From NCBI RefSeq assembly GCF_003597395.2, contig NC_133769.1, positions 44,499,831 to 44,563,830 on the forward strand: a DNA stretch of 64,000 bases. Direction: 5' to 3'. Shown here in pieces: positions 10,451 to 60,082 of this stretch. The notes beneath the pieces are model-generated. The model made no database searches. It had not been told where the DNA came from and saw nothing but the letters and a program-made list of their open reading frames with translations. The position numbers and the translations under genes were made by a program. Every line of letters starts with the position of its first letter. Position 1 is the stretch's first letter. This DNA comes from Chelonoidis abingdonii. Lineage: Eukaryota > Chordata > Testudines > Testudinidae.

Positions 10451-10452
10451 TT

Positions 10453-11245
10453 GTGGTGGGTAGTGTCATATCCAGTGATGGATCACTGGATAATGAGATC
10501 AATGCACGAATATCCAAAGCAAGCCAGGCACTTGGCTGTCTGTGTGTCGAAGTTTTAAACCACCACAACATCCGGATGTCAACAAAACTGCTTGTGTACA
10601 GAGCTACTGTTCTTTCATCTCTTTTGTATGGGTGTGAAACATGGACACTATATAGGCGTCACATCAAGCAGCTCAAAGCATTCCACATGCGTTGCCTCCG
10701 CAACATCTTGAAGATCCGCTGGCAAGACAAAGTGCCCAATCTTGAGGTCCTCGAGAGAGTCCAGATGACAAGCATCGAAATGATGATCATGAATGCACAG
10801 GTACATCAGACCGGTCGTGTCAGCTGCATGGATGCCAACAGAATCCCCCTGCAGCTTCTCTATGGTGAGCTCTCCCAGGGCATCTGGCATATAGGTCGTC
10901 CATGAAAATGTTACAAGGATACCATCAAAGCCAATCTGCAGTATAGCAGTGTCAAACCCAGGGACCTTGAAGACGCCAGCGACAGAACACAGTGGCGTGC
11001 AACAGTCAGAAATAACAGCCTTCGAGGAAGACTGCTGCTAGTGTCTACAAGAGGCACGCGAATGACATCACAGAACACCAGCAGTGCACAACCCATTGAC
11101 TGCGTACTTCCCATGCACCATCTGCAGCCAAATGTGCACCTTTAGAATTGCACCTTTATAGCCATCAGAGGGCATACCATGAGACCAACAATAGATGATT
11201 TGTTATCGTCGGATCGATAGCCTACCAAGAAGAAGAAGAAGAGAG
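10453..11245 (+). pseudogene. Non-LTR retrotransposon, RT C-terminal fragment and 3' end
   Basis: A 150-codon frame (10453-10905) starts SVISSDGSLDNEINARISKA and continues with LLYGCETWTLYRRHIKQLKA, then a WQDKVPNLEVLERVQ segment and LLYGELSQG. These are hallmarks of the region after the reverse-transcriptase domain in a non-LTR LINE. Similar but shifted coding continues to about 11110, followed by a 3' UTR ending in an (AAG)n tail at 11229-11240. The N-terminal endonuclease and RT core are missing (5' truncation). The exact clade is uncertain. It is in the same orientation as WASL and not part of it. Confidence 0.75.
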
Positions 11246-31904: not shown

Positions 31905-33335
31905 GTGACATTTCCTTGAATTGTTTGTATGAATTTCATAAAGGGATCTTATAAAGTGAGTAATGCAAGAGTTATGCCTATTAGATTTTAGTATGACTTT
32001 GATAAAGTCCCATGTGACATTTTGATAGCAAACTAGGAAAATATGGTCTCGATGGAAATTACTAGGAGTGGTGTGTATAGCTGACTGAACGACTATACTC
32101 AGAATCAATGGCTTACTGTCAAACTGGGAGGACCTATCAAGTGGCATCCCACAGGAGTCTGTGCTGGGTCCAGTAATAATTAATATTTTTATTAATAACT
32201 TGGATGATGGAATGGAGTCTTCCTATAAAATTTGTGGATGACACCAAGCTGGGAGGAGTTGTAGGTACTATGGAGAACAGGATTGTAATTCAAAATGATT
32301 TTGATAAATTGCAGAATTGATATGAAATCTACACTATGAAATTCGGTAAAGACAAGTGGATAGTACTTAAGTATGAAAATCAAATGCCAAATACAAAATG
32401 GGGAATAACTGGTGAGGGAATACTGCAGAAAAGAATCTGAGTGGTGTAGTGGGTCACAAATTGAACATGAGTCAGCAGTGTGGTGCTGTTGTAAAAAAAT
32501 GTATTTAATAGGAGTGCCATGTATAAGATATGGGAAGTAATTGTTCAGCTCTGCTTATCATTGGTGAGGCCTCCACTTCAGTTGTGGGCACGACACATAT
32601 AGAAAGGATGTAGACAAATTGGAGATACAGCAGAAGATAGCAACAAAGAAAGGTGAAACAAGAAATGTGCAGTTCTAGAGAAGAGAAGGCAATGAATGAG
32701 GGAGACACATTTTTCATATATGTAAAAGGCTAACAAAATGGACAGTGATCAGTCGTTCTCCCTGACCAAGAAGTAATCCTCTTAGTTTGCAGCAAGCAGG
32801 GGTGAAAGTAAGCTGATGTGGGCCACTACAGTGTGCTGGTAAAGTCGCTGCTAGTACCGGCCTGTACCCAGCTGACCTTAAAGTGCTGCCCCTTTTGCGC
32901 CCCCCTCCCTCATCAGCAGTCCTGCCAGATCCCTACCGTGCTGCCATGGCAAAGGACCCTGCTTAAAGCGCTGCCGCGGCGTGGGCCGGGTAGTGCAGAT
33001 GGGCTGGCTGGGGAATGCTGACCCCCCAGCTCTGCCCCTTCTGCCCAAGGCGCCGGCCCGCGTACTGGTAAGTCCTGTGTTCTACTTTTACCCCTGGAAG
33101 CAAGGAAGATGTAGAAAGCTTTTCCTAGTATCTAACCTAATTGTAAGGATAGTTAAGCTCTGGAACAGGTTACTAGTGAGGTTGTGGAATCCTTTATCCT
33201 TGGAGGTTTTTAAGGACAGGTAAGGCAAACATTTGTTGGGTATGGTCTAGATATACTTATTCCTGCCTTAGCACAGAGAGATGGTTTAGATGATCTTTTG
33301 AGGTCCCTTCTAGCCCTATGTTTCTATGATGGGGG
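31905..33335 (+). repeat. CR1 LINE, 3' part, split by a hAT element
   Basis: CR1 sequence runs from about 31905 to 32796 and resumes at 33097-33335. Markers in order are TGGCTTACTGTCAAACTGGG, TTTGTGGATGACACCAAGCT, GTATGAAAATCAAATGCC, GCTCTGGAACAGGTTACTAG and GATCTTTTGAGGTCCC. The first part still shows traces of the RT C-terminus, but frames are broken. It begins just 60 bp after WASL exon 2. Confidence 0.9.
32797..33096. mobile_element. hAT MITE nested in CR1, 300 bp
   Basis: The left end is CAGGGGTGAAAGTA and the right end, on the minus strand, is CAGGGGTAAAAGTA. Flanks GCAGCAAG (32789-32796) and GAAGCAAG (33097-33104) are an 8-bp duplication with one change, and both match the CR1 sequence expected at that point. 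The interior is GC-rich and non-coding. Confidence 0.88.
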
Positions 33336-35909: not shown

Positions 35910-36006
35910 ACATGTCAGGTTGGTCTTAATTTTGCTAATGAAGAAGAAGCTAAAAAATTCCGGAAAACAGTAACTGATTTGCTTGGACGACGGCAAAGAA
36001 AATCTG
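35910..36006 (+). CDS. WASL: WASL exon 4 (end of WH1 domain)
   Basis: This 97-nt exon is phase 0 at the start and phase 1 at the end. The acceptor is TTTCTTTCAG and the donor GTAAAT. It encodes TCQVGLNFANEEEAKKF and then RKTVTDLLGRRQRKS plus the first base of a Glu codon. This is the last strand and C-terminal helix of the WH1 domain, ending in the Arg/Lys-rich stretch before the linker. The split codon is completed by the microexon at 47411, about 11.4 kb downstream across the DIRS-bearing intron. Confidence 0.97.
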
Positions 36007-36579
36007 GTAAATATCCAATTTAATGCCTCATTAAATTGAGGCTAGGCTAGAGGTGTAGGGGGGATTAGCTGATACTTCTATATCTGAAAGCTGTATAAGA
36101 ACTTAGTGAAACTAATGTCTGAATATGGCACTGTGTAAGCTTATTTCATGTGTGATATAGAAAAATATACAGTACAAATTTCCTGAAGTAATACAAAAAT
36201 TGGTTCATCTTAAAGTCTCTTTGCAATTTGAGGCTCCGCTAATATGTGGTATTTGAAAGCACAGACGGGAGGGGGTAAAGCAAGCTTACTTTGAACTGGA
36301 AATCTTTACATAAGTTGTAGACAATTTAAACTAACCAGCCATTCAGCTCTGGGGTTCTCTTAACTAACTCTGTTTAAATTTGGCCCAAATGATTAGTAAC
36401 TGAAATCTCTTACTATCTGGTATGTCCAGTAGTCCATGTGAAATTGACTATTGGTATCAATCCAGTTATTTGTGGAGAAATGTCTTATTCACAATTGGTA
36501 AGGCTACCTATGTGTTATGGCATGAAAAAATCACAGAAAATGATACTTTTTTTTTCTTGTTTGAGTTTTTTCTATGTCC

Positions 36580-36850
36580 GTGTCTCACCCTGCAGTGGGG
36601 GCTTCTGCAACTCCTGTGTTCTTAGGGGCTGGCCCCCTGCTCCAGGTGTTTGTTGTCTTAGAGCACCAGGTCACAGCACTGCTCAAATATGGCCCAGTCA
36701 TCCCTCCCACTGTGGCGGAGGGTTGGGTGAGTGAAACTTGGAGGGTGCTGCAACCCCCCATGCACCTGGTTACAACACCCAGAGCAGAGTGCTAGGTCCG
36801 GCCCCAAGGGACACTGGAGCCAAGTTTAGGGTTGTGGCTCCAGAGGTAGA
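36580..36850. other. GC-richer block in intron 4, unclassified
   Basis: Open in several frames because of composition (for example 36574-36795 +). I recognise no protein. It is probably part of an interspersed repeat ending near the A-run at 36967-36985. Confidence 0.4.
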
Positions 36851-37054
36851 TGGTGCTGCTGCAAATAATTGATGTCCCCCTGATGATGCAAAGAGGATAT
36901 TTATCAAAAATCATGTGGCAGTCAAGTGACTTAATAAATTTACTATGACTGTGCCATTATTTTTGATTTAAAAAAAAAAAAAAAAACTGACACATCTGCT
37001 GCCCTAACAATTGGTAATCAAACCAGAGGCCAAAACCTGAATACATTTAGAGGC

Positions 37055-37155
37055 TACGGGCCTGATCCTGCAATGCATTCCCTATTGAATTCTGTTCTTC
37101 ATTGGGGCCCCATGCAGGCAGAGCTCACTGCAGGATTGGAGCCTACATTTCTTTG
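37055..37155. repeat. Palindromic amniote repeat
   Basis: GGGCCTGATCCTGCAATGCA at the left mirrors CACTGCAGGATTGGAGCC at the right. Related ends flank the DIRS at 41510 and 47105. Confidence 0.6.
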
Positions 37156-37524
37156 GGTGGGATTCCCTAAATTGTGTAGTTTCCTAAGTCTGGGTTTAAG
37201 CATTAAATCTGTTTTAGGCTGTGTTGCAATTAACAAAACTCCCACCAAACTCCGTAGGCGTCTAAACTCGGCACCTGAATTTTCAGAGTAAAAGTTTCCT
37301 AAACATTTAAGTTTCTGCCTCTGGGTATACACACTGCTGCCTCGCTGTAGGTGTCTGGGTACCTTCTCCCATCTCAGCCCCAGCAAGATTCACAAACTAG
37401 AGAAAGATAGGTGGTTGGATACCAGTCTTGCATGCATGCCTGCTCCAGTAGCTGTGCTCAGAAGTCACCTACCAGATTCGATTCCATTCAGAATCTGACT
37501 GGAGGAGATGGTGGAGGTGCCCTT

Positions 37525-37720
37525 TATAACTTTTGTGGCTAGAACACTCACCTAGGATATGGGAGACGAGACCCAGGTTCAATCCCCCTCTGTCTGAGGG
37601 GGAGAGGATTTGAACAGGGATCCCCATATTTCTCAGAATTAGAGCTCAATGATTAGAGCAATGGGATAGTCTGATGTGAGACTGCTTCAGTCTCTCCTGT
37701 TCAAGTTGTTCCACTTCAGA
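37525..37720. repeat. tRNA-like palindromic repeat
   Basis: TGGCTAGAACACTCACCTAG, GACCCAGGTTCAATCCCCCT and then GAGGATTTGAACAGGGATCC give tRNA-like blocks in opposite orientations, as at 1186-1315. It is not a functional tRNA: no acceptor stem closes. Confidence 0.55.
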
Positions 37721-37724
37721 TAAA

Positions 37725-40700
37725 TAGTCACTGAATCAAGGGGTCTGGACCCTGCATCTACCACCATGCTCCAGAGTCATTCCATAGCTTTTGCATTTGC
37801 ATGTGCCTAATGACTCTTTATTTTATTTATGATTAATAATAAAATAGTCAATGAGCTAACGGTGATAAAGTGGGCACCACCATCACCTCCTGTTTTGTAT
37901 GAAGTAAGGCAGGCACCTAATTCCTTCTCACAACACACACCTTGGTGCCTTTGCCTCCTGACTCCAGGAGAGAGGTTCCCGGCAGTGAATCACTGGTAGA
38001 AATAGGCACTTATCACCAAGAGAGAATAGAGACTTAGGACACACCGATTTCATTGGCATCTCCCATTGCTAGCTTAGGTGGCCCCCCACCAACCATGCTG
38101 GCTTTTGTGGATCACTGTCTGTAGTGCCTGTCTCAAATCATTCATTTTATAGGAAGCCAACGTGCATAACTAAGGCTTTAAACTGCAGTGTTGTTCCTGT
38201 GATTATTTAGGCACTTAAATGTTAGGCATTGTGACACTTGACATCACAATACTTTGTGAATGTCTAGAGTTAGAACATATTAGTGGGAATGGTGCCTTGC
38301 TTTAACTATTCATTGGGTAGATATGTTCTCCAAAGCTATAAGCCTTGCAACTTTCACAAACCCAAAGTTTCACTTTCATAAAGATACTACTACAAGTAAA
38401 GCAACATTTTAAAACTCTAAAAGCTTTTATTCATATATGGCTGCAGAGCAGACTTCTCCATGATGTTGGCCATGGTAAACTTTCTTCAAAAATACAGGAG
38501 AAAGATGATTATTAAAACTAGCATTATTTTTATTATAGTATTTCTTTCATGTAAAGACACTTTTATTTTAGTACACAATATAAGCACACCGTTATTAACC
38601 TGTACTGCTTTGTGTTCTTAAACTTTGTTTTATGCACCGTAGTAACATTGACTTATTCATGTTTTTTGTAAAGTTTCTCTGTTTTAATTAAAAAGGCTAC
38701 ATAATCAACAGCTACTTAATTATATCGTTTTCAGTTGATTGCTGTTCTCCTTTTTAATTAATTTCTAGGGTTTTTTTCCTTTCATGTTCAAAACTTGTGA
38801 AGTTCTCTGATCAAGCCACCAGATGGAGTTCTGAATTTATATACCTCAGACACGATTTTATCTAATTTTGGGTGTTTGAATTAATAGCTATTATATTTCT
38901 CACTTATCTAAAGACTACACAAGTATAGCTTGATTAGTAAATTGATATGCTTACATAATGCTTCTGATGACTCTCCCTTGTTTCATCAGATGTAGAAATA
39001 ATGTATACTAATACTTTTAGTGCTGTCTCTGCACATGGTATTAGAATAGTCATAAAAATCGAGTGGTCTTGGTAACGGATGATACTCTAGACTTCCCAGG
39101 AATTACTTTTGATAATGCCAAACATTGGAATGTTAATCTTTTTCTGCTTTTTACAAGAATCCTATCACTCTAGTATATCTCTCAGAATAAACTTCACCTG
39201 GAACAGGTGCCACCTGACATATTGGCAAGTGGTCACACTGCCAAAATACTTCTGGCAGGCTCTGACTAGCCCGCAAGACTACTAGAAAAGTTTCCAGTTG
39301 TCCCTTGAGGCTTTTCATCATTGGAAGACAGTGCGCAAAACAATTCTATGCTCTTTTGAACTAGCCTCTTGGAGCTGAGGCTCGCACATAGAATTTGTAC
39401 TTGCACTTTCTCGTTTTCTGCAAGCCTCTTCCTACTAGAAGTGCTGGGATGTGATAAGGACGCTGATTCTTTAACAGAGGTGCCCAGGAGCAGCAGCAAC
39501 AGCCACCCAGAGGTGCCCAGGAGCTCATCATCTAGCAAGGCTAAAATAGATATTTGGAAGACAGGAAAAAGAGGGGAGACCCCTGGTGTTCCCTAAAAGG
39601 GAAATAACAGTGTGGAGGGGAGAGTGTAGCAGAATCGTCTGGTAGGTCTGAGTGCAGGTAAACAAAAAAAGGAGTATAGATTGACTGAGTAGTAAACAAG
39701 AGGAGAAAGAAATTGAGTTGGAGGAGGAATGGATGGATAGAAAGAGAATCTGGGTGAAGGAAGGAGAGAATTAAACAGGAGAGGTAGAATGGAGCGGAAA
39801 AAACACAAATTACTGAACATGTTCTGATTGGGTGATTGGAGGTTTTTGGTGGTGTATGGCTGTGACTGACTCCTAATCAAGCACAGGTGAGAACACTCAT
39901 AAAACAAAAGTTTTAAGCCCATGTAGCTAAATGGATAAAACAAAAGGAAATAGGGGCAAAGAGTCTTCACTGTATCTTCCACCTCTACACCCAAGCAGTA
40001 TTGGTTTGTGGAGTGTTAGAGAGAGATTTTTGTTCTCAAATGCTACAGATTTTGGCCGGGAAGGTAATTTAACCTTCTTGTAGACCTGCAGCCATGCCCT
40101 TTGCTTCTTGTCAGCCCCTTCTCTCTCTACCTCTCCTGAAAAGATATCCTTACCTGCCCTCACCTTAAATTCTGAAGGAACAGAACTAGAAGTCTTACAT
40201 TGGCTCCCAATTTAGATCTCTGAAGAGTCATCTTAAAAAACACCGGGCCATTTCTAGAGTAACAGCTGGCAGCTTTTCTTTGAACATCTAACTGCGGGAG
40301 GAAAGCTACCACTTCCCCCGCAATCCAATTGTTACTCACCAGAGCTTTTATGATCAGTTTCAGTTGTCTGACTGGAAAATAGGTAGCTCTGAAAGCTGTA
40401 ATTAGACACCCTGCTTTGAACAAGTTAGTCATCTTAAATCCATACTTAATCAAAAATGCTGAGTACATGCCACTTCAGTTGACTTCATTTGTAGTATGGG
40501 TGCTCAGTGCCTTTAACATCAAGGCTGCTTTCAGTTAGATGACTAATTTTAAACCAGAAACTTAAAGTTTAGCTGCTTGCTGCATTAGGAGGGATAATCA
40601 GGAAGCTAATATAGGTAAATAAAAACACACATCCGTTTGTGCAATAAAGTAAATCTAAATTAAACCTTCCCACTTTAATTCCAAAAAACAAATGAACTGA

Positions 40701-40945
40701 TCCCAAATATGTCTCTCACACAAGCATTTACAAACAGAGTGCATATGGGTGAAGAAGAGAATAATATTGCTGGAGGGAAAGCCATTTTAAATGGTATAGT
40801 TCAATATCACAGCTGACCCCTCTGGTTGCCAGTTAAAGCTGTAGGTTGGTGGCCAAGTTGGCCCTATTTGGCTTGTTCAGCTTTAGACCTATATGAAATA
40901 CTTGCAATTAAATTCTAATATTTCAGAATGTAATATTTTTTGCTT
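37725..40945. other. Intron 4 stretch, nothing recognised
   Basis: AT-rich with scattered open frames on the minus strand (39266-39538, 40160-40468) that show no domain. A purine-rich tract lies near 39690-39790. Confidence 0.45.
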
Positions 40946-40949
40946 CAGT

Positions 40950-41162
40950 GGGGGACAGTGTTTCTTAGTGGATAGAACATTGGACTGTGAGTTTGGGAGA
41001 CCTGCATTCTAACCCCCGCCAAGCCACTGGCCTGCTGGGTGACCTTGGGCAAGTTGTCACTTCTGTGCCTCAGTTTCCCCATCTGTAAAATTGGGGTGAT
41101 GCCTCCTTTATAAAGTGCTGTGAGATCTACTGATAAAAGCGCTATATAAGCACTTCAGATTG
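40950..41162 (+). repeat. MIR SINE, nearly full length
   Basis: Core order is intact: GTGGATAGAACATTGGACTG, GTGACCTTGGGCAAGTTGTC, TGCCTCAGTTTCCCCATCTG and AGCGCTATATAAGCAC. This is the conserved CORE-SINE common to amniotes. Confidence 0.9.
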
Positions 41163-41570
41163 TGAGTAGTTTCACCTAAATGACTAAAGTTGCATGGTGT
41201 CTGTTCAGAGGGGACTTTACAGAGCAGAGTGCATTCTCTTTAGAAGTTCTGTTTTAACAATCTTTGCATCAAACACATTTTTAAATTTTTCATTTGAAAG
41301 CTAACATTATGTGAACACGTCACTGTACAAAATGTTAAGGCCTCAAATTGGTCTTAATCAAATTTTCAGTTGGGGAAAAAGGTAGCTAGTTCCGCACAGT
41401 CTTACTCAGTGTAAACTGTTCAAACTGCTAATTCTTTCCTAATGTGGGTTTTATAGTTCTGTAACTTCTAATTTTGCTGTGATGATTAGGCTGTCTGTGG
41501 CATATAATCTAAGGCCCTGACTCTCCAAAGACTAAGCATATGCTTCGCTGTAAGCATGAGAAGTCTCAAT

Positions 41571-41743
41571 TCTTCTTCGAGTGCTTGCTCATATCCATTC
41601 CAGTTAGGTGTGTGCGCGCCGCGTGCACGTTCGTCGGAAGATTTTTACCCTAGCAACACTCGGTGGGTCGGCAGGGCGCCCCCTGGAGTGGCACCGCTAT
41701 GGTGCCGGATATATACCCCTGCCGACCCAGCCGCCCTTCAGTT
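41571..41743 (+). repeat. DIRS left inverted terminal repeat
   Basis: It reads TCTTCTTCGAGTGCTTGCTC, ATATCCATTCCAGTTAGGTG, then GCGCGCCGCGTGCACGTTCG and GGTGGGTCGGCAGGGCG. The reverse complement of 46883-47061 repeats it over about 160 bp with few differences, including a few indels near the CCCCCTGGAG block. The right copy extends about 35 bp further outward, as usual in DIRS elements. Confidence 0.92.
41708..41715 (+). promoter_or_regulatory. TATA-like box in left ITR
   Basis: GATATATA lies about 135 bp inside the left end. The matching place in the right repeat is changed to GATATTAA on the complementary strand. DIRS elements use the left terminal repeat as promoter, so this is a plausible promoter TATA; function is inferred. 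Confidence 0.5.
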
Positions 41744-42211
41744 CCTTCTACCGCCCGTGTCGGTTGTTGGAACAGTGGATGCAGCAGCTTAGCGACCTCA
41801 CCGCTTCCGCTAGCTACTCGTAGTTCTTGTGTTATAGTCATTGTTATATCCTTTAGTTGCATATTACTTATGCGTTTTTTTCTTAACTAGTCTAGTTAGT
41901 TTATAATAGTTGGCAGGGTTCGGGCAGTAGCCCCTTCCCGATAGTGCCGGGAACCCATGCCCGGCTTACCGGTTTCTTAGACTGTGCTTGGACACCTAGA
42001 CCGTTGCTTGACAGGAGACTCCACGACTATCGCTTGTTTAGGGTGCCTCGGGGACTGAATTCAACAGCTAAGTTGCCCAATTTGCAGGCGTTTAAGCCGA
42101 GAACAAAACGGAGCGCACTTTCATTTCCCCTCCACCTTCTGCAACGAGCGCAGGCTACTCGGCGAGACAGAAGCGCCTCCTCGCACCGACCCCTCCGGGC
42201 ATGGCCATTAC

Positions 42212-42910
42212 TTGCACCGAGTCGGACTCGCACCGTCTCCCTCATCTCTGAGGCGTTGCGGAAAGCCACGCTCTTCTGCCAGTGCTGACAGCTCCGCGGC
42301 ACGCGCCTGGGTTGACTCGACCCGGCTCCTGCTTGCTTCTTGTGCCAACTGCACCGCCAGCCAGAGACTCATTTCAGTTGGATCGCCTGGCACCACACCT
42401 GCAGAGACGCTGAGGACACCGCCACTGTTGATTCCGGTCCCGCTGGCCGTTGATTCCAGTGCCTGCCTGCTCCGTGGCATATCGCCGTGGTTGAGCCCTG
42501 CTCCTGCTGTTCCGTGCCAACTGCACCGCAGCCAGAGAGCTTGTCTAGTCGGATCACCCGGCAACGACACCTGTGCGAGCCACCGACAAACTAGCGACGC
42601 GGCACCGTCGCTCCGGTCCGCAAGGGCCGTCGATCCAGTGCCTGGCGCTCCCGCGCTACGCGCGTGGTTGAGCCTCCTGCTCCTGTTCTTCCGTGCCAAT
42701 CGGCCAACTGCAGCCAGGGAGCTCATCGTAAGTTCGGATTGCCCGCTCCGACAAGCATGCCGCAGCACAAACAAACGTCGGCACCGTTCGATCCGGTCCA
42801 TAAAGGGCCGTCGATCCAGTGCCTGCCTGCTGGCCTCGGCGCCACACGTGTCGAGCTCCCCTGCCTCTTCTTCCCGTGCGACAGCACCGCAGACAGAGAG
42901 CTCTGTCTAA
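42212..42910 (+). pseudogene. DIRS ORF1 (gag-like) fragment
   Basis: A 232-codon open frame, rich in Ser, Ala, Arg and Pro, overlaps most of the tandem array. Such low-complexity basic proteins fill the ORF1 position in DIRS elements. Homologous units appear in shifted frames, so the original frame is broken. No conserved domain is visible, and assignment rests on position between the left ITR and RT. Confidence 0.5.
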
Positions 42911-43140
42911 GCCAGATCGCACCGGCAGCCGTACACCTGCTGATGGGCACTGGCGAATCAAGCACTGTCGATCCCGGTCCCACAAGGGCCGTAGAATCCT
43001 GTGCCTGACAGCTCCCTGGTACGCCTGTTGGTCGAGCTTACTGTTCCTCCACGCGAGGACAAATTTCCAACGGCGAGGGATCTCATGCCCTGACAGAGTT
43101 TTCTGCCTGACATCCGCACCGTTGGTGTGGGTATTGTCTC
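42283..43140 (+). repeat. ~180-bp tandem repeat, five copies, inside DIRS ORF1
   Basis: Units begin at 42283, 42460, 42639, 42820 and 43002 (spacing 177, 179, 181, 182). Each starts TGC(C)TG followed by a TGG(T)TGA/TCGAGC block, a 'ttccgtgcc' block, CAGCCAGAGAGCT-like sequence and ends near GGGCCGTCGATCCAG. The 180-bp period equals 60 codons, so the array would encode a repeated 60-residue module. The last copy is shortened and diverged. Confidence 0.85.
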
Positions 43141-44563
43141 TGGCAAGCCACCTTGAATAAGGACCATCCTCTGTTCAGCGCAGCAGAGTGGCAACCTGTT
43201 CAATGATCATAGGTCCTACCTGCAGACGCCCCACGTCGTGTCGGGCTCCCACTCCCACCCTCTTTACAATCCCGATGCTGTTCTCCTCGGCACGGTTCGC
43301 ACTCGCGCGCAACAGGTCGTGTCACCGTTCACCGACTCCGATATATCTCGGCACCCGTTCGTGCTCTCCAGCAACTGCCTATTGGGCAACTGTGGCTACC
43401 GGAGCCGCTCCCAACCTCGAATCTCGTTCGACCCGGCACCGCTCTGGTCTCAGGTCCGGATCCGTTCCGGGTACCACTGCGCCTTCCGGTACCGGTCCAG
43501 GTGCCGAGTTGGGCAAGTGCTGGTAGAGTCAGGACTCTGCCCGTGGTTTTTCAGGCACCTCCATGGCCATTCCGGGCACGCATCAGTGTCTTCCCACCGG
43601 ACAGCTTTATGCTCAGGACCGCGATTCAGTTGTCCTACCACAACTTGAGAGCCCATCAGGACCTCCTATGGAAGGTAGCACTCAATGTGGACCTCCAGGC
43701 AAGAGGTCCCGGAGGTAGGGGACCGGTAGTGCACATCCTATCGGCGGTTGCCCCACTAGAGGGCCCGACCTGTTTATTCGGACCATCCAGGCGAATGCCG
43801 ATGCTCTATGGAGGGTACAACTACTTGTCTGTCCATCTCCTTCCCTGCTCACTAGTCATTCATTGGTTGAGAAAAAGGGAACGCATGGCCAACAGGCCGC
43901 CACCCCCCCCGAAATCGAAGGGGCTAGGCAAATGACCCTACTCGGCCGCAGGTGCATTCTGCAAGGCCTTATAGCCCTGCGTGGCAATCAATAAGCCCTG
44001 CTTAGCCCCTATAATCATAACACCTGGAATTACGGTGGATAAAGTTATGGAGCTCTCCATCAAGTTCCCGCCAAGAATTCATTGCCCTCTGGAGGAAGAG
44101 AAAAGGCGGCCAGAGCTTCTCTCCAGGCCTCGTTACATGAGGAGCATCTCCTGGCTTCAGGTTTCAAACTCCGGCCTGTCACGACTTACCATTGTGGTAA
44201 AGGCCTCTTTGCGGGGAAATCAACCCCAGGCTGAAAAACCTGAAGGGCAACAGGGTCCTAATGTACTCTCTCTGGGCGTGCGTACGCCGACGACCATCTG
44301 CAGGCCTTTCCATCCCCAGCCACACGGCCAACACTCTGTTGCCTAGCCAGATAGAACTTTCAAAGGTGCGTCCGAGGGCTGCATGACTGGTTACGAGCGG
44401 GATTCCACTTCCTACTGCCTCTTGGCATGATCCCAGTTAACTTCAGTTCGCTGTTCCCTACACATGTGGAGAGTGAGTACCACCTCCACTTTGTTCAACC
44501 CTGTCCCTCTCAGGGACTCCTCTCGGGCGCAATTCCTCTTACACGAGGTGCACACGCTGATGG

Positions 44564-45610
44564 ATGAACGGGCACTTACTTCTCTTATTCCGTAATCCCG
44601 ACTTGTATGGAGGTCTCAGACCTATCGTAGACCTACGAGGACTAAACCAGTTTATGATAAGGTTGAAGTTCCACATGGTAATCCCTGGGAACCATTATCC
44701 TGTCCTTAGATCCTGGAGACTGGTATGCCACCTCGATATGAAAGATGCGTACTTTCACATTGCATCCTCCTCGCACAGGAGATACCTCCACTTTCTAGCC
44801 AACCATCGGTACTTCAGTTTACGATCCTGCTGTTTGGCCTTTTCTACAGCCCCGCAGGCATTAACCTAGTGTGTGGCCGTAGTCGCCAACCCACCTCCGC
44901 CGACCTTGGATGTGCATTTTCTGCATCTGGACGATTGGCTTATCTGAGGATACTCCACGACGCAAGTCACTCAGCGTGTGGGCATCGTTAGGACCAAATT
45001 CACATGTCTAGTCGCTGGATGATCACTATGGAAACATCCACTCTGGTTCCCACGCAGAGGTTAGAACTTCCTAGGGCTATCCTGGACTCGAGCTAGCCGG
45101 ATTTGCTTACCACAGCCACGGTTTCAGGCGATGGCACCGATCATCCGAGGTCTGCAAACTTTCCCGATGACCTTGGCTTGCCCTTGTCTGGGTCTCCTGG
45201 GTTCCATGGCTGCCTGCAGTTTGTAACAAACACGCTACGCTCTACCTCTGTCTTCTCCAGGTTTGGCTCAAATTGGCGTACCGCCGGGACAGGGCCCAAT
45301 GGTCATGATAGTCACCATTCCCTCGAGCACTCTAGGCTCCCTACACTGTGGCTAACTCCCTCCCTGGTGTGGGTAAGGATGCCGCTCTATCCGCCACAGC
45401 CCTCACTGTCCCTGACGACGGATACGTCATCTCTCGACTCAGGTGCTCACCTAACAGTAACGGGGTTCCAGCAGCAGCTGCGAGGCAGTGGCGTCTCAGT
45501 GTACAGCCAGCACAACGGCCATGTCCTACATAAACAACCTGGGAGGGACATGGTCCTCCTCCTTTTGTCAGGAGGCCATCCGTCTCTGGGACCTTTGCAT
45601 TAGCCAACGT
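44564..45610 (+). pseudogene. DIRS reverse transcriptase and RNase H remnant
   Basis: The frame from 44564 contains GGLRPIVDLRGLNQFM (from 44609) and HLDMKDAYFHIA (from 44729), the RT motifs A and B of DIRS. After a frame change the catalytic box reads HLDDW at 44924-44938; the two Asp are kept and the preceding residue is His where I expect Tyr. RNase H traces include SLSLTTDTSSLDSGAHL (about 45400-45455) and an N-N-L-G-G-type segment near 45525. At least two frameshifts and a stop (around 44868 and 45600) break it. Confidence 0.85.
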
Positions 45611-46079
45611 CGAAAAAATCTGGTAGCATCTTTTTCCTCGGTGCTTTGACTCAGCAGGCCTTTCCTGTCTCATGATGCTCGCCCTGCCTGATGTCATGCA
45701 TTCTGTTGCCAGCGCAGTGGGGATTTTTCCCACATATGTGGCCTGTTCGCTTACCACGAGAACGCGGAATGACGAGGTTCTTGCTCCTCGCAAGGTCTCT
45801 CTCCGGCCGATCTCGGACGCTGTCCTCATGCCATGGAAGGGCCAATGCCCTTTATGCCTTCCACCGTTTCCCCGGCTCATTGGGTCCTGCTTCAGATTCG
45901 CAGGGGCAGGGCGTGGGCAGGGCCAGCGGTGTCATCGCCAAGGGTACACTTGGCAGCCATCTCTACCTTCCTTCCAGGCTAAGGTGTCGTTCTGTGTTCT
46001 CATACTCTATGGTTTTTGTGAGGTTCCTCCAGGGCTTGCAGCGCATACAACCTTAGGTACGCGCCCAGCCCAACCTGGG

Positions 46080-46735
46080 ACCTCAACCTGGGTCTAACCA
46101 GACTTATGTCTCTTCCATCGACCCATTAGCGACCTGCTCGCTGTTACCTGTCTTGGAAGACAGCTTTCCTAGTAGCCGTTACGTCGGCCAGACGAGTCTT
46201 CGAGTTCAGGGCTCTTATGGTGGTTCTGCCATACATTCTGTTCACAAACCAGGTGCAGTTAGAACTACACCTGGCTTTCCTCCCTAAGGTGGTTCGGCCT
46301 TTCATGTTCACACACACTCAACGCGATGGGGGACAACAATTGCACCCTGGACGTCTGTGGAGCGCTCGCATTTATGTCGAGCGGACAAAACCGTTTTGTA
46401 ACTCGCCCCAACTCTCGGTCGCAGTAGCTGCCGAAGGAAGGACCTACTGTTTCTCTCAGAGGAATCTCATCTTGGGTGCTGCTGTGCACCCGCCCTTGTT
46501 ATGATTTGGCTCACCATTTCCCCAAGCCACATCACCATGCGTTCTACCAGGGCTCAGGCTTCATCTGCCGCCTTACTATCTGTGTACCTACCCATGAGAA
46601 TCTATCGCGCAGTTCCATGGTCCTCGGTCCACATCCTTGCTTTGCATTATGCTCTGGTTCAACAGCCACGGGATACTGCAGCCTTGGCTCAGCAGTTTGC
46701 ATTTTGCAGTATCTCACTCCGACCCCACCGCTTAG
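46080..46735 (+). pseudogene. DIRS tyrosine recombinase remnant
   Basis: WKTAFLVAVTSARRVFEFRA starts at 46154 and carries the first catalytic Arg (46190-46195). LHLAFLPKVVRPFMF and YVERTKPF follow in the 46217 frame. The C-terminal part in the 46501 frame reads SPSHITMRSTRAQASSAAL and later IYRAVPWSSVHILALHYALV. The nucleophile Tyr (46648-46650) and second Arg are kept. The His expected at the H-x-x-R position is Arg here (46540-46542). One frameshift and a stop separate the halves. Confidence 0.83.
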
Positions 46736-46751
46736 GTAAGGCTTGGGAATC

Positions 46752-46852
46752 ACCTAACTGGAATGGATGATGAGCAAGCACTCGAAGAAGAAAAGACGGT
46801 TACTTCACCTTTGGAACTGTTGTTCTTCGAGATGTTTGCTCATATCCATTCC
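46752..46852. repeat. DIRS internal complementary region (joined-end copy)
   Basis: GGAATGGATGATGAGCAAGC, ACTCGAAGAAGAAAAGACGG, TTACTTCACCTTTGGAACTG and TTGTTCTTCGAGATGTTTGC run in this order. The reverse complement equals the element's right end followed directly by its left end (...AAAGGTGAGTAACCGTCTTTT joined to CTTCTTCGAGTGCTTGCTCA). The same stretch is also partly self-complementary. This sets the outer boundaries of the element and is the DIRS signature for replication via a circular junction. Confidence 0.92.
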
Positions 46853-47097
46853 ACACCCGCCCTCCTTCCCCGCTGTCGGAGTAGCCGCAAGAAGGAACTG
46901 AAGGGCGGCTGGGTCGGCAGGGGTTAATATCCGGCACCATAGCGGCGCCACTCAGGGACGCCCTGCCGACCCACCGAGTGTTGCTAGGGTAAAAATCTTC
47001 CGACGAACGTGCACGCGGCGCGCACACACCTAACTGGAATGGATATGAGCAACACATCTCGAAGAACAACAGTTACAAAGGTGAGTAACCGTCTTTT
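46853..47097 (-). repeat. DIRS right inverted terminal repeat
   Basis: The reverse complement matches the left ITR. The outer end continues past the shared ATCTCGAAGAA into CAACAGTTACAAAGGTGAGT, then AACCGTCTTTT. The inner part (46853-46882) is GC-rich and lacks a strict match to the left copy. Confidence 0.9.
47077..47086 (+). promoter_or_regulatory. Consensus 5' splice-site motif in DIRS right end
   Basis: AAAG|GTGAGT is a near-perfect U1 donor, with GT at 47081-47082. The same motif is kept at the end of DIRS relic 1 (AAG|GTGAGT, 22536-22544). It could act as a cryptic donor within intron 4 just upstream of microexon 5. Use is inferred, not shown. Confidence 0.5.
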
Positions 47098-47410
47098 ATA
47101 AACGCTTGCAGGATCGGGGCTCTTTTGATATATAAATGATTTCACTGATCTGTTGTGCTAAACTTTATTTCAGTTTTAAGTCAGTTTATAAATGACATAA
47201 ATCTGATATTTTTTCCTCTGTTCTTGGACGGTAGAACAGCTAAAATAAAACATTGGCAATTATGAATAATTTGTATATTACTATAAGAATAAAATTCATA
47301 TGTAGAAAGTCTGTATAGTTTGTAAAACTACAAGTTATGGAGATGTGTAATGTTGAAGAATTCAGTTTTCCTTTTTGAATAAATACTTTTTTGTGTTGTC
47401 TTTTTAACAG

Positions 47411-47434
47411 AAAAAAGACGGGACCCACCAAATG
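47411..47434 (+). CDS. WASL: WASL 24-nt microexon 5 (linker)
   Basis: With the split codon it encodes EKRRDPPN, then the first base of Gly. The acceptor follows a T-rich tract (TTTTTAACAG) and the donor is GTAAGC. It joins exon 4 (phase 1) to exon 6 (phase 1), and skipping it would keep the frame because 24 is a multiple of three. The residues match the linker between WH1 and the basic region, so it is a real constitutive or alternative microexon. It lies 313 bp after the end of a 5.5-kb DIRS retrotransposon. Confidence 0.95.
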
Positions 47435-48467
47435 GTAAGCTTTTGCATAGGGTTACTTCAGTTCTTTTTCTTAACTCCTTCATGTTTAGACATAATCACT
47501 GACTTTTGGCTTTTTTTAACATAATCTAATGGCTGTATTAAACAGTCCTGAAAGGATCAATTCCAGGAAATCAGAATTTTAATGTTTACATGAACTACTG
47601 TACTGGTAAGTAATCATGACCACTACCAGTGAAGATGAGGGGAGGCTATTGAACTGAGATTTGGAATTGCCTACAAGTAAGGCAAACCATAGATTCATAT
47701 ACAAACTAATTCCAAATTGCAGCAATCAAGTTGCAAACAAATAAGCCTTTTATCTTAAAAACAGGAGTGCTTAAGTCTTAATAGACAGTGATTTTTTTTA
47801 AAAAAAAGCATAAAATTGACATATTCATCTTTCACAAGTATCCACAAGGTTCTGGACTGCAAAAATGAAATTGATCCAAGTCTTGTCAGTTTTGTGCAGC
47901 TGCTTGTAAAGGCAGAACAGGCATTGGAACTACCTGTTAATTTAGGAAGGCAAACTGCTTTAGTTTACTTTGTGAAGTTTACTGTCTGCTCAGCAAAGTG
48001 CTGCTAGAAACTTGAGGGCACGTGCTCAGCCTGATCTTCCAGAAAACTCTTTGAACTTATTTGTAGCATCTAAGATTACCATAACTTCAAACCCAGCAAA
48101 AAATCTTTCTCAGTTTGGTTATTTTATGCATTTGACAGCACTTTGTGTACGGTTGATTTCTCTGTCATGCTGGTCCTTTGCACTCCTTTGTTTTCATGCT
48201 CAGTACTTATGAGACATCACTCTTGGCCCTGCTCTGAGGGAGAGAGCACACATGCACAATTTTCTCAAGGCACTAGAGTTGCTCTTTGAGTTTAAGACCA
48301 GAAGAATGTCTCCTTCTTAACCCAGAATCTCTGCATGGAGCCAGGAAGTAATGGGCAGCCAGAAAAAGTCCCTCTTTTCGCTTCCCAGGCCCCTGTACAG
48401 GGTTGAGGAGTAATGGGAGCCTGTGTATATTCAGAAGTCACCCTTCAGTTCCACACAGGGATGGCAG
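47435..48467. other. Intron 5 start, nothing recognised
   Basis: AT-rich. Open frames at 47816-48007 and 48012-48212 lack domains and splice context. Confidence 0.5.
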
Positions 48468-48588
48468 TAGGGTGACCAGACAGCAAATGTGAATCAGGAC
48501 AGTAGGTGAGGGGTAATAGGAGCCTGTATAAGAAAAAGACCCAAAAATCGGGACTGTCCCTATAAAATTGGGACGTCTGGTCACCCTA
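48468..48588. mobile_element. Short hAT-type MITE, 121 bp, perfect 8-bp duplication
   Basis: GATGGCAG occurs at 48460-48467 and 48589-48596. Ends TAGGGTGACCAGAC and (minus strand) TAGGGTGACCAGAC match exactly. The inside is a rough palindrome ('aatcaggaca ... cgggactgtcc'). Confidence 0.9.
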
Positions 48589-48599
48589 GATGGCAGTGA

Positions 48600-49436
48600 G
48601 GAGAAATGAGGGCTGGATGAATGCTCAGGCCAGGAAAGATGCTTTCTTTTTCACTTTTACCACTACCATGAACTGGGAGAGAAGGGAGGCAGTGAGTGGT
48701 GTGTGGGGATGGAATCCTTCATAGATATGGATTAGGCAGTCAGGCATTAGGCTGCAGGGAGAAAGGAGGCATGCTATTTCCACCAGAAAGACTTGAAGAC
48801 AGAAGTGGGGTAGCCTTCAGCCTCTCCAGGGTATTTGAGTAAACAAGCAGTTGCATAAGGGGTGGATCTTTCTGTCAGATGGTAGGAGGAGGCACAAGTG
48901 TGTGCATGTGCACAGGTGGCGGTGAGGGAGGAAAATTCCCCTCCCACTCCTCGATATTGAGCACACTGGGAGCTGAATGGGATTGAAGCTGGAAAGCAGT
49001 GATTCCTGGGAAATGATTTTCCAAGGATCTCAGGGAACAGAGGCTGCTGTGGTGCAGAAGGGAAGCAGTAGAATTCCTCTGCAAGTCCTGGGGAGGCGTT
49101 TGGAACCTGGCTGGTCTCATGTCAATGTTGCTGCTGAAGAGCCTGCCACATAGGAGGCCCTCGGATCTGGGGAAGAGCTTGAGAAAGAATGGGCTGAGCA
49201 TATTTGATGTCTTAGGCCAGCCCAGTCTCCCCTGTTGAAGACACGTAAACATCAACAAGGAAGCGGAACTGTCCTTCATTCTTCTTTCTAAAAGAAGAAA
49301 AGATTTTAAACTGTGACACTTATTAAAAGGTTTTGCTATCAATTCTTTAAAGTAGCTGGTATCAGAAAAATCAGACAATATTAATTTCATTCCAAAAGTT
49401 TTCTGCAAAATTTGTTCTGCATTAATTTCACAGCAT
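48600..49436. other. Intron 5 stretch, nothing recognised
   Basis: A 177-codon minus-strand frame (48875-49408) covers much of it, but I recognise no domain and see no splice context. It is probably non-coding. Confidence 0.4.
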
Positions 49437-50160
49437 TTTGTGGAGAGCTCACAAAGACCAAATCAAAAAGACCTATGGACACTCAAGGAGACTTAACCCT
49501 TTGCTACATGTAAATGTTCTAGAGGTTTTTTGTTTAGCCTGTGTAGCTTACCTGCCTATGATCCAAGGCCGAGCTATGACCGATAATACTGCAGCAATTT
49601 CTACATGAAAAAGCAAGGGCTTGATTGTCCCCTCCCTCTCCCTCTCCCTCTCCCTCTCTCTGTCAGCAATTGGTGCATTAGGCCATCACATCACTTCATC
49701 TGCTAGGCTGCCAGAATTAGACACCCTAGCAGATCACTAGGTAGATAGTTCTCATGAGATTGCAAATGTTCAGTCGAGGATTCCAACCTACAGAACACTT
49801 CCACCAGTGAGGTCTCCTAGTCATGGAGGAGTTTGCCTCAGAGGCAAAGTGTCAATTTCTGTTCCAGGGAAGGTCTGAGCCCTGGATCCCAATCCGTTGC
49901 TTTCCTTATCCCAGGAGTCTTGAAGGTAATGTATGCCTACACATCAATTCCTCTAACATGAAGGGTCTTGAGAAAGCTTAAGAAACCCCTCATGGTAATA
50001 AATCCTGGAATTAGCAACTTGGCCTAGGAAACTTTGGTAGGCAGATCTGATGAGTCGATTCAGCAATTGGTAATGCTACTGCTAATTCCAGTTTCCCAGA
50101 ACAATGAAATACCCCAGTGTCCGCAGCTTCTTGATAGTCCAAACCAGATGCTAGATGTAT
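49437..50160 (+). pseudogene. DIRS relic 3, RNase H part
   Basis: Broken translation gives WRAHKDQIKKTYGHSRRLN, then VLEVFCLACVAYLPMIQGRA and MTDNTAAIFYMKKQG, which carries the RNase H 'TDNT' acidic motif. Later segments are SWRSLPQRQSVNFCSREGLS and PGVLKVMYAYTSIPLT. It breaks off near 50160, where a hAT-like end (CAGAGCTGCCAAGAGCGG) begins. It is in the WASL orientation. Confidence 0.75.
49628..49661. repeat. (CCCTCT)n microsatellite inside DIRS relic 3
   Basis: TCCCCTCCCTCTCCCTCTCC continues as CCTCTCCCTCTCTCTG, just after the RNase H KKQG motif. It is an expansion within dead coding sequence. Confidence 0.85.
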
Positions 50161-50164
50161 GTTC

Positions 50165-50265
50165 TATGCAGAGCTGCCAAGAGCGGGTTTGGGCCCCAGT
50201 GGAAAAATATTTTCGGGCCCGTCAGCAAGGGCGGACTGGCTAAACGGGGCCGACATACAAGGTAC
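50165..50265 (+). mobile_element. hAT-like MITE fragment
   Basis: CAGAGCTGCCAAGAGCGGGT, then TTTCGGGCCCGTCAGCAAGG and GCGGACTGGC. It resembles a GC-rich hAT MITE left end; the right end was not found. Confidence 0.4.
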
Positions 50266-50419
50266 AGAAACTTGGAGTTGGGCCACCAGAGCCCTCAGAG
50301 AAGGGGTGCTTGAGTACTGTGGAGAGCACTAACTAATTCATCTACCAAGGCTGCAGGTAGAATTCAGACAATTGCAGCAAACCAGATGTTCTTGAACGAA
50401 TAGGTCTTGCTGCTTCTTG

Positions 50420-50690
50420 TGTGAAGTCCATGTCTCATTTATGGATGTAAATAAGTTTTTGCTGAAACAAGGATCTATCAGACCTGTGTGCTGCCTGTAT
50501 TGTTGTGCAGAAACATGGACCCTCTTACAGGCAGATTTGGATCAGTTAGAGGCATTCTATACACTCAGTGAGTGCAGAATCCTGAGCGTAGAGTGGGTTT
50601 GACTTCATGATCCTGCTCATTCTATTCAGAAGTTGTTTGTTTGCATGCTCTTCAGCTGAAGGAACATAAATCCACGCCATGTAGAGGTCT
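50420..50690 (+). pseudogene. Non-LTR retrotransposon RT C-terminal fragment
   Basis: The frame 50417-50602 reads SIRPVCCLYCCAETWTLLQA and DLDQLEAFYTLSECRILSVE. The 'AETWTL...LEAF...RRIL' order is the post-RT segment of non-LTR elements, similar in layout to 10618-10710. It is short, broken, and nested between the halves of DIRS relic 3. Confidence 0.65.
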
Positions 50691-50699
50691 AGCATAGGA

Positions 50700-51735
50700 G
50701 TTTTACGTACAGTGCTGATGGAGTGTCACCTTGCTTATTAGGCTCGAAGACACTGTCAGTCAATTGATTACAATAGAATATATGGATTTTCCATGGGTGG
50801 GGGAAAGTGACAGGGTAAGCAGTTCCACACCCTAGGATAGGTCTAGCGGCAAGACAAGATAGCATAGTCGCCAATGGTTAAAAGGTTACATAATGTCTCT
50901 GCCCGTGGTCTCAAGTTAGCAAGTTAACATTAATACTTTGATAAAATGTTATTAGTATAAAATATATGTCAAATTCTGATTTGGGGTCCATAAGAATGAA
51001 GCAACTCCCTTTGATTGTCCAACAGGTACGTTCCTGGGGTTAAAGCAAAGAAACAGTGAAAGTGTATGGCAGTAGAGATTTGTCTGTCTTGTGTTTTAAG
51101 GCAGGCATTGGTCCCTGGGAAAGGGAGGTGGGAGGAGGCCATATCTTATACTGACATGTTCTAACCTTTCATAAACTCAAGGTTGGACGTGTAGGAAGAA
51201 CTTTTCCCTACAGAAGAAACAATAGGAACAGGGATTCTTTGTTCAATTTGCAACTTGAATCAGACAGTTATTTAATTCTCAGCTCCAACACCTGGCAACT
51301 TGCTGACTAGCTTATTTTAGCAAAACAAGATTATCTGTTTACCCCAGCTTTCACTTAGCTGATCACTGTTTGCTAGGCCTCTGGTCTCTTGACCAAACTC
51401 TCAACTTTGGGTCTGGAAAAGAGCTGGCACAATCCATATACCAGGTTGTTATATAAAATGCATATGGATTTTAACCCTTCATCAGCCATCTTGCCAGAAA
51501 GGACAAAAACACCCTAGCCATTAGTCTCAAACTCTCCATCAGCATACAAAACGGGGTATATCCTGACCCCAGCTGTTGCCACCTGCGGGACCACCCTAAA
51601 GATTTGTGGATTTGCAGGTTTGAAACAGATCTGTGAACTTCACTACATAATGTGACACCATCAACTATGGTCACTCTGACGCCATGGTCCTCAGTAGATT
51701 GTAGGTGTCTGATCACCCAATTACAAAAAGACATA
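50700..51735. other. Inserted material between DIRS relic 3 halves, unclassified
   Basis: About 1 kb without DIRS similarity. I recognise no coding domain. It is presumably further insertions or their remains. Confidence 0.4.
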
Positions 51736-51739
51736 CTGT

Positions 51740-52815
51740 ATTCTCACTCCCGAAGGTAGGTAAGTTTCTGAGGGCCCTAGTCTACTCATTTCCTCTAAGC
51801 TGCCCTTCCTTCCTGGGATCTCATTGCACTCAGTTTCCTCTCTCCGGGAAGATGGTATTCCTAGTGGCAGTTACATCACTCTGCAGAGTGAGGAAGTGCA
51901 GCCACTCATGAATGGGCCGTCATACACTGTCTTCCATCGAAACGAAGTTCTCCTTAGAACATCTTTGGTAAAAATTTAGGATAGGCCTGTCTTCTATCTG
52001 AATCAGATGATCCATTTATCTTCAGTCTTCCCTTGGTTGGCATGGGAATACGGGAAGGATAGACTTCACACCTTGGATATATTTGAGGACCTCTCCTTTT
52101 GCCTTAATGGAACTAAATTATTTGGGGTCTCCCCAAGGCTGTTTATGACCTTTATCCATAGGACAAAGTCAGGCAATATTCACCGAGAGGCTTTAAGTGC
52201 GTAGCTAATTGTATTGGGGCATGTTATAAGCTAGCTAAATTAGACCTTCCTTTACATACAGATCTTCACCTAGCCTGAGGATGCTCAGGCATCCTCTGCA
52301 GCTTCTTTGAGAAATGTACCCACTCCTGATATTTGTAGGGCAGCTGCATGGGGATCATTACATGCATTTTTTAGGCATCTAGGTCAGATGTCCATTTTGG
52401 CAAAGCTATTCTACCGTCACTATTCAGGTAGCCTCCAAGCACTCTCCTTATTTACGTCAATTCACTGTTGTAAGTCACCAAAGTGGAATACACATGGACA
52501 AGCACTGAAAGAAGAAAACAGTGATTTACTCTACAGTAAGTGTGGGTCTTTGACATGTTGTCCATATATATTCTGCAACCTGCCCTCCTTCCTGCTACTA
52601 CAGAGTCTGACAATACCTGGATTCTGTATTGGTGAAGGAACTGAAGGCTAGTTGACCCCACTCCACACTTTGTCCTCAAGGTTCAGGGATGGCCACAACA
52701 GATACTGCTGGTCAAAATATTCTCAACTTGAGATGTGCAAGGGGTGCACCAGAACTGAATACCTATGGAAAACTCACCTCTAAGAACCACAGTTACTGTA
52801 CGTTAACTAACTATT
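51740..52815 (+). pseudogene. DIRS relic 3, recombinase, complementary region, right end
   Basis: FSLPKVGKFLRALVYSF and KMVFLVAVTSLCRVRK (51720-51900) match the recombinase N-terminal part. Later PDICRAAAWGSLHAFFRHLG (52322-52390) matches the recombinase C-terminus. Near 52485-52570 (CACATGGACAAGCACTGAAA ... TCTTTGACATGTTGTCCATA) and 52755-52815 (GAACTGAATACCTATGGAAA ... CCACAGTTACTGTACG) lie a decayed complementary region and right terminus in mutual inverted order. Stops are frequent. Confidence 0.76.
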
Positions 52816-52979
52816 CTTTCATATAACTTCCTCCAGCTCCTAGAAGGTTCCAGTAAAAAAGCAAAAATACATTTCCTTTTTCTAGAAAAACAATTCTTTT
52901 ACTTTGTGTCATCTCAATACATAACTATTTTTATAAAAGATTTTGTGAGCTGGAATATAACCATTATATATAGACACAT

Positions 52980-53045
52980 AGTGTGAAATCCTGTCCCCGT
53001 TAAAGTTAGTGGTCATTGATTTTACTGGGGCCAGAATCTAACCCA
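52980..53045. repeat. Short palindromic amniote repeat
   Basis: GTGAAATCCTGTCCCCGTTA at the left mirrors ACTGGGGCCAGAATCTAACC at the right, around TTAGTGGTCATTGATT. A related palindrome lies at 57245-57330. Confidence 0.5.
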
Positions 53046-58449: not shown

Positions 58450-60082
58450 AGTGTGCATTATCCACTCATTAGCAGGGAAGGAGAAGTAATGACAGATAAC
58501 ACCAAGAAGACTGAGGGGTTTAATGCCTGTTGTGTTTCAGTCTTTCCAAAAAGGTCCATTGTGACCCAGATGCTTAACACAATATTAACAATAAGGAGGA
58601 AAAGAACACAAGCTAGAGTAGGGAAAGAACAGGTTAACGAATATTTAAATAAGGTAGATATGTTCAAGTTTACAGAGCCTGATGAATTTCACTCTAGGGT
58701 ACTTGAGGAACTAGCTCAAACGAACTCAGAACCATTAGTGATTTTCTCTGAGAACTCATGGAGGACTAGTGAGAGTCTCAAAGGACTGGAGATGGGCAAA
58801 CATGGTAGCTATCTTTACAAGGTGGAACAGAGAGGACTGGGGAATTATAGACCAGTCAGCTTAACTTTGTTACTCAGAAAGAAATCTGAATAAATTGTTA
58901 ATCAAGAAGAAGATAAGGTAATAGTAGTAGCCAATGTGAATTTGTCAAGAACAAAGCATACCAAACAACCCTAATTTCCTTCTTTAACAGGTTTACTGGC
59001 CTAATGTATAGGGGGAAGCAGTAGAGATAATATATTTTAATTTTTAGTAAGGATTTTGACACAATCCCACATTACATTATTGTAAGCAGTTAGGGAAATG
59101 GGTATAGATGAAATTACTATAAGGTCAGTGTACAACTGGCTCTAAAAAAAGTACTCTGTAGTTATCAATGGTTTACTGTCACTCTAGGAGGAAATACCTA
59201 GTAGAGCCTTGCCAAGATCTGTCCTTGGTCTGGTACTAGCCAATATTTTTGATAATTTGAGGTAATGGAGTGGAAAGTATACTTATGAAATTTTCAGATG
59301 ACACCAAGCTGGGAGGGGTTGCAAGTGCATTGGAATTCAAAATGACCTTAACAAATTGGAGAACTGGTCTGAAATAAACAAGATGAAATTCAGTAGATAC
59401 AAATGCAAAGCACTACACTAAGGAAGAAAAAATCAAATACCCAAATACAAAATCAGGAATAACTGGCTAGGCAATACTGCAAAAAAGAATCTGAGCATTT
59501 TAGTGGATCACAAATAGAACATCCGTCAACAGTGGTGATTCTGTTGCACAAAAGGCAAATGTCATTCTGGTATGTATTTAACAAGAACATTGTATGTAAG
59601 ACATAGGAGGTAATTGCTCAGCTCTACTCAGCATTTGTGAGGTCTCAGCTTGAGTTCTCAGTACCACACTTAAAGAGAGATGTGGGCAAATTGGGGAGAG
59701 TCCAGAGGAGAGTAATACAAATAAGTTTAGAAAACATAGCCTGTGAGGAAACATTAAAAAAAAAAAAAATGTGCACACTTTAGTCTTGAGAAAAGAAGAT
59801 TGGAACATGGGGGAGGACTTGGTAATAGTCCTCAAATATGTAAAAGACTGGTATGAAGAGGATGATTCTTAATCTTCAGGGAGGAATATTTAGGTTGAAT
59901 ACTAGGAAAAAAATTCTGACTATAAAGATGGTTAAGTACTGGAATAAGTTACCAAGGGATGTTGTATAAACTCTGTCATTAGAGATTTTTAAGAAGCAGT
60001 TAGACAAACAAAAACCCAGGGGAAGTGGGGTGGACTAGGTGACCTCTCAAGGTCTCTACCAGCCCTGGGTTTATCCACTAGG
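58450..60082 (+). repeat. CR1 LINE, 3' 1.6 kb
   Basis: From 58450 the sequence follows the CR1 ORF2 second half and 3' end: GACAGATAACACCAAGAAGA, GCCTGATGAATTTCACTCTA, GGGGAATTATAGACCAGTCA, TTCAGATGACACCAAGCTGG, GTCCAGAGGAGAGTAATACA and GACCTCTCAAGGTCTCTACC. The RT frame is open for 146 codons at 58453-58893 and then breaks. It starts 340 bp after WASL exon 6, in sense. Confidence 0.92.

Follow-up and report, generated by a model that had tools for sequence, protein, structure and literature searches.

DIRS1-like elements are tyrosine-recombinase retrotransposons with a characteristic layout, described by Piednoël et al. 2011 (PMC3266345) as inverted terminal repeats (ITRs), a right extension (rE) and two internal complementary regions (ICRs) that overlap on a 3-bp junction, with a trinucleotide of the form NTT at the start and end of 23 of the 28 annotated elements. 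Elements of this layout have been published for many eukaryotes (PMC3266345) and for Xenopus (PMC9210276), and in the painted turtle 792 DIRS1-like regions were found, 642 of them with a reverse transcriptase (RT) of the DIRS type (PMC4495291). According to the model put forward for these elements (PMC5633606, PMC3266345), an RNA lacking parts of both ends is copied, the ICR supplies the template on which the missing parts are restored, and once the ends have been joined the closed molecule is integrated by the recombinase at a trinucleotide, although the model is regarded as not fully proven in the review PMC5633606. In the 64,000-nucleotide stretch of Chelonoidis abingdonii DNA analysed here (NC_133769.1, positions 44,499,831 to 44,563,830 of the forward strand; hereafter the window, to which all coordinates refer), a segment of about 5.5 kb (41569/41570-47097) is, with high confidence, a full-length but inactive DIRS1-like element, the ICR of which would serve as template for its ends.

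The identification is carried by the relation between the ends and the region close to the 3' end, where two ICRs complementary to the outer ends are found. After reverse complementing, positions 46751-46792 correspond to 41570-41610 apart from one additional base, and positions 46791-46853 correspond to 47035-47097 apart from one mismatch and two single-base gaps. The left and right ICRs measure 42 and 63 bases, respectively, with an exact overlap of 2 bases (46791-46792), and on the minus strand the region reads straight from the right end into the left end. By aligning the joined right and left ends with the reverse complement of 46745-46860, a local score of 91 was obtained, to be compared with a mean of 7.5 (s.d. 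1.2) and a maximum of 15.5 in 2000 dinucleotide shuffles. This alignment, which an initial sequence-only reading of the window had proposed as a check, confirms its observation that the internal region is the reverse complement of the joined ends. The ITRs (41570-41749 and 46890-47069; 180 bases, approx. 95% alike) gave a score of 158 versus at most 18 in 200 shuffles, and can be divided into a conserved part of approximately 163 bases and a divergent part of approximately 15. On the right side lies a terminal extension (47070-47097, approx. 28 bases) that finds its complement in the right ICR alone; no extension is seen on the left.

The ends can be placed almost to the base. The left end is at 41570, or at 41569 when the ATT trinucleotide is counted, the right end is at 47097 and the ICR starts at 46751, so that the DIRS identity, the two boundaries and the ICR layout of the sequence-only reading were right, with coordinates accurate to 1-2 bases. 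In terms of trinucleotides, the element starts with ATT (41569-41571) and ends with TTT (47095-47097), while the junction reads AAA (46791-46793) and differs from the left edge at one position. The only bases that the two edges have in common on this reading are TT, also present at the ICR junction, as expected of a recombinase crossover. The earlier statement that target duplication is absent thus needs rewording: none is seen other than that of the crossover bases.

Among described elements, AcDIRS1 and AcDIRS2 of Anolis carolinensis (PMC3266345) are close in layout and sizes. Both have ITRs, an extension on the right side only (26 and 28 bases, versus approx. 28 here), a left ICR shorter than the right one (40-58 and 39-60, versus 42 and 63) and a similar length (5.9-6.0 kb versus 5.5 kb). 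AcDIRS2 starts with TTT, ends with TGT and has the same AAA junction as the tortoise copy. The latter differs from the Anolis elements in its broken frames, and may differ in the array of approximately 180-bp units in its leader. The DIRS1-like elements of Pelodiscus and Chrysemys are alike by description, being bounded by ITRs, with open reading frame 1 (ORF1) placed ahead of RT, RNase H and recombinase (PMC4495291). Dictyostelium DIRS-1 has the same kind of ICR, which pairs with the beginning of the left terminal repeat and the end of the right one, but belongs to a different host and, when full-length, contains three overlapping open reading frames, none of which is intact in the tortoise copy (PMC5633606). 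The layout is the textbook arrangement of the group: the observation is correct and the kind of element is already known. What this copy provides is the exact ends of one DIRS element, the joined-ends sequence itself being a standard part of these elements. The features of the copy and of two further remnants in the window are collected in table 1.

Table 1. Features of the DIRS1-like element and of the related remnants (window coordinates).
Feature	Position	Strand	Remarks
Left ITR	41570-41749	+	inverted match to 46890-47069; outermost approx. 15 bases differ from right ITR
Leader tandem array	42279-43048	+	about four degenerate units of approx. 180 bp, 67-72% alike
Presumed ORF1 (gag-like), broken	43157-44343	+	by position alone; no Pfam match in four pieces tried
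RT remnant	44561-44866	+	RVT_1 below threshold; presumed from motif
RNase H-like remnant	45336-45646	+	presumed from motif only; no Pfam match to 45097-45600 or 45461-45646
Methyltransferase-like remnant	45676-45905	+	presumed from motif only; no Pfam match to 45676-46053 or 45627-46094
Tyrosine recombinase (YR) remnant, several frames	45926-46740	+	presumed from motif; pieces match D3 and D2; no Pfam match
Left ICR	46751-46792	+	complement of 41570-41610
Right ICR	46791-46853	+	complement of 47035-47097; overlaps left ICR at 46791-46792, the circular junction
Right ITR	46890-47069	-	inverted match to left ITR
rE	47070-47097	+	approx. 28 bases; pairs with right ICR only; ends TTT (47095-47097)
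D2, 3' part of older DIRS remnant	51825-52818	+	YR fragments; ICR at 52468-52592; right terminus ends near 52818
D3, older DIRS remnant	about 19590-21490 (outer limits by eye)	same	YR-region pieces; RT presumed from motif only

The first of these remnants, D2, is found on the same strand 4.7 kb downstream of the full-length copy. Its ICR matches that of the latter (E=5e-11; score 47, best shuffle 20), its right terminus matches the right part of the full-length copy (score 38, best shuffle 21) and also the reverse complement of its own ICR (score 27, best shuffle 20), with none of 2000 shuffles reaching the observed score in any of the three comparisons. Two YR pieces of D2 also find counterparts in the full-length copy, namely 51840-51890 with 46148-46198 (17 residues, 71%; DNA match over 51825-51934, E=0.001) and 52283-52378 with 46552-46647 (32 residues, 47%; E=3e-4 as a single comparison). 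A left ITR was not found in 47098-52400 at E up to 1, and D2 is therefore taken to be 5'-incomplete. Copies with different ends had been named by the sequence-only reading as an observation that would speak against it; D2, which was compared at its right end only, has an end of the same kind.

The presence of a second ICR together with its own right end makes it possible to ask whether the two change together. The right end and the right ICR of the full-length copy and of D2 were placed in one four-way alignment, with segments trimmed to the ICR, yielding 58 gap-free columns. In 9 of these the two members agree within each copy and differ between copies, no column shows the crosswise pattern, and the result was the same in all four aligner settings; a rough permutation gave an expectation of 2.06 such columns, and 9 were reached in 0 of 20000 trials. 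The pattern, which comes from one pair of copies, the right end only, and a short and partly diverged alignment, matches what would be expected if the ICR acts as template. On balance, it seems likely that diverging DIRS lineages of this genome acquire matching changes in the ICR and the outer right end. If so, a comparison that requires no experiment would argue for the ICR as the physical template on which the end is rebuilt at each cycle. Two copies in a single 64-kb window offer this simple test of the template model, which could be applied to the many copies of a genome, and a genome-wide count could be used to ask in which direction the information flows. A second copy with an ICR that follows its own end is, in this respect, slightly more than routine.

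With these observations, the path by which such a copy would be formed can be outlined along the lines of the published model. An RNA without parts of both ends would be reverse transcribed, following the published proposal for DIRS-1. With its complementarity to the right end and then to the left end, the ICR would act as template or splint, restoring both ends and bringing them together, and the element's tyrosine recombinase would then join the molecule to the target at the trinucleotide common to the junction (here AAA/TTT). Apart from the crossover bases, integration would duplicate nothing of the target, and the ends read ATT...TTT. The layout, the boundaries and the co-change of ICR and right end in a second copy are observed in the sequence; template use, end joining and integration by the recombinase are inferred steps. 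The sequence-only reading went further and took the internal region as direct structural evidence for a circular-junction intermediate, which is too strong: the ICR is an inherited part of DIRS1-like elements (PMC3266345), and is thus consistent with a circular intermediate rather than direct evidence of one. A genomic copy is moreover the end product of the process, from which a double-stranded circle cannot be read. If the element is of the DIRS type, it is conceivable, though we consider it the less likely course, that a linear single-stranded complementary DNA (cDNA) is the molecule on which the ICR acts, without an obligatory double-stranded circle. The title of Malicki et al. 2020 argues for linear single-stranded cDNA, and the same ICR might be necessary for a linear intermediate as well; on the other side, circular DIRS-1 cDNA is reported to have been verified experimentally, though only in an agnA deletion strain (PMC5633606).

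The coding part is badly broken. Its stop-free plus-strand stretches of at least 40 residues number 43, no intact frame being left, and 16 of the 43 were run against Pfam, with RVT_1 as the sole match (E=0.073; 13.2 bits, cut-off 29.6). By eye, the pieces contain motifs that we take to be those of DIRS-type RT, RNase H, methyltransferase and tyrosine recombinase, in the expected order. The claim of the sequence-only reading that ITR, ORF1, RT/RNase H, YR, complementary region and ITR are all present in order can be checked only in part because the frames are destroyed: it holds for the ITRs and the ICR, whereas ORF1, RT/RNase H and YR could not be demonstrated as intact units.

Support for the domains beyond the presumed motifs comes from weak homology to the other DIRS remnants in the window, that is, D2 and the second remnant, D3. 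In the latter, 20738-20782 matches 45926-45970 of the full-length copy (15 residues, 80%, E=0.007) and 20946-21044 matches 46145-46243 (33 residues, 45%, E=4.6e-4). Taken together in a narrowed search, the two pieces give a joint E of 7.5e-5, with the order of the full-length copy kept and nearly the same spacing; the best plus-strand match of two control stretches had E=2. An initial assignment of 45926-45970 and its D3 counterpart to a methyltransferase was dropped, the motif being, as we presume, a better fit to the start of the recombinase. Pfam returned no match for three D3 pieces, and the ends of D3 were not found. Between D3 and D2, the 3' parts gave an alignment score that 4 of 2000 shuffles also attained, a likeness that is suggestive only.

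Several results weigh against the assignment to a DIRS1-like element with a templating ICR. The divergent and conserved parts of the ITRs measure 26 and 136-140 bases in Anolis (26/136 in AcDIRS2; PMC3266345) versus approximately 15 and 163 here. No family reached the Pfam cut-off in the pieces searched, and protein relatives of the RT piece and of the YR piece were not found (4 candidates, none at E<=0.001, in one search, and 8 candidates, none at E<=1, in the other). The YR pieces of D2, taken singly in a search of the whole window, appear weak (E=0.25 for 51840-51890 and 0.10 for 52283-52378), and the E=0.001 of the narrowed search for the D2 YR is a joint value in which two additional D2 matches are included, one of them within a simple repeat (49628-49658). 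An ICR proposed by eye for D3 was not borne out, with equal or better shuffles in 1609 of 2000 cases against its own downstream sequence and in 306 of 2000 against the ICR of the full-length copy. Finally, with untrimmed segments the four-way alignment gave 10 co-changed versus 2 crosswise columns of 65.

A different tyrosine-recombinase element (of the Ngaro, PAT or VIPER type) or a Crypton may be considered, since the YR-like remnant is homologous to other remnants and no domain match fixes the type; we regard this as very unlikely. VIPER elements and Cryptons are not known to have the layout of ITRs and ICRs. PAT and Ngaro elements carry split direct repeats (PMC3266345, PMC9210276), whereas the repeats found here are inverted and accompanied by ICRs, and the Ngaro order A1 ... 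B1 A2 B2 does not occur, the terminal repeats being inverted. That there is no DIRS element at all, but chance inverted repeats or an inversion or duplication of the ends during assembly, would fit the destroyed frames and the single weak Pfam match, but is practically untenable in view of the score of 91 for the joined ends (at most 15.5 in 2000 shuffles) and of the homologous ICR (47 versus at most 20) and right end (38 versus at most 21) of D2, both with 0 of 2000 shuffles.

As for the age of the DIRS1-like copy, the ratio of observed to expected CpG is 0.77 within the element, versus 0.17 in the left flank (36000-41569) and 0.20 in the right flank (47098-53000), in agreement with the earlier remark that the copy is CpG-rich unlike its surroundings. 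Its repeats (ITR pair, left end with ICR, right end with ICR), with 266 aligned bases in all, contain 5 mismatches and 5 gap events. The substitutions and the CpG content both point to a copy of fairly recent date. D2 and D3, being CpG-poor (0.21 and 0.24 in the two remnants), look older. Substitutions are expected to exceed insertions and deletions (indels) several-fold, so that equal numbers of gaps and mismatches are unusual, and an indel-rich decay could account for the shattered frames, the gaps being either true indels or assembly errors. Because the CpG content points to a young copy and the frames are nevertheless broken, it was considered that an already defective copy had been mobilized in trans. 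This is not required, since with 5 gaps and 5 mismatches in the repeats the damage to the frames may be part of the same decay.

Ahead of the coding part, the leader of the element is G+C-rich. Its tandem array, absent from the Tandem Repeats Finder listing at the tool's settings, is reported by the same program at laxer settings with a period of 179 and 4.2 copies, and also with a period of 361 and 2.1 copies.

Elsewhere in the window, for which Rfam and transfer RNA scans gave no matches, a stop-free stretch of 168 residues is found at 10399-10902, which, from its presumed motif only, looks like the 3' end of the RT protein of a long interspersed nuclear element. A dispersed pair of sequences, 32282-32498 and 59329-59553, is 78% alike over 225 aligned columns and is probably another interspersed repeat.

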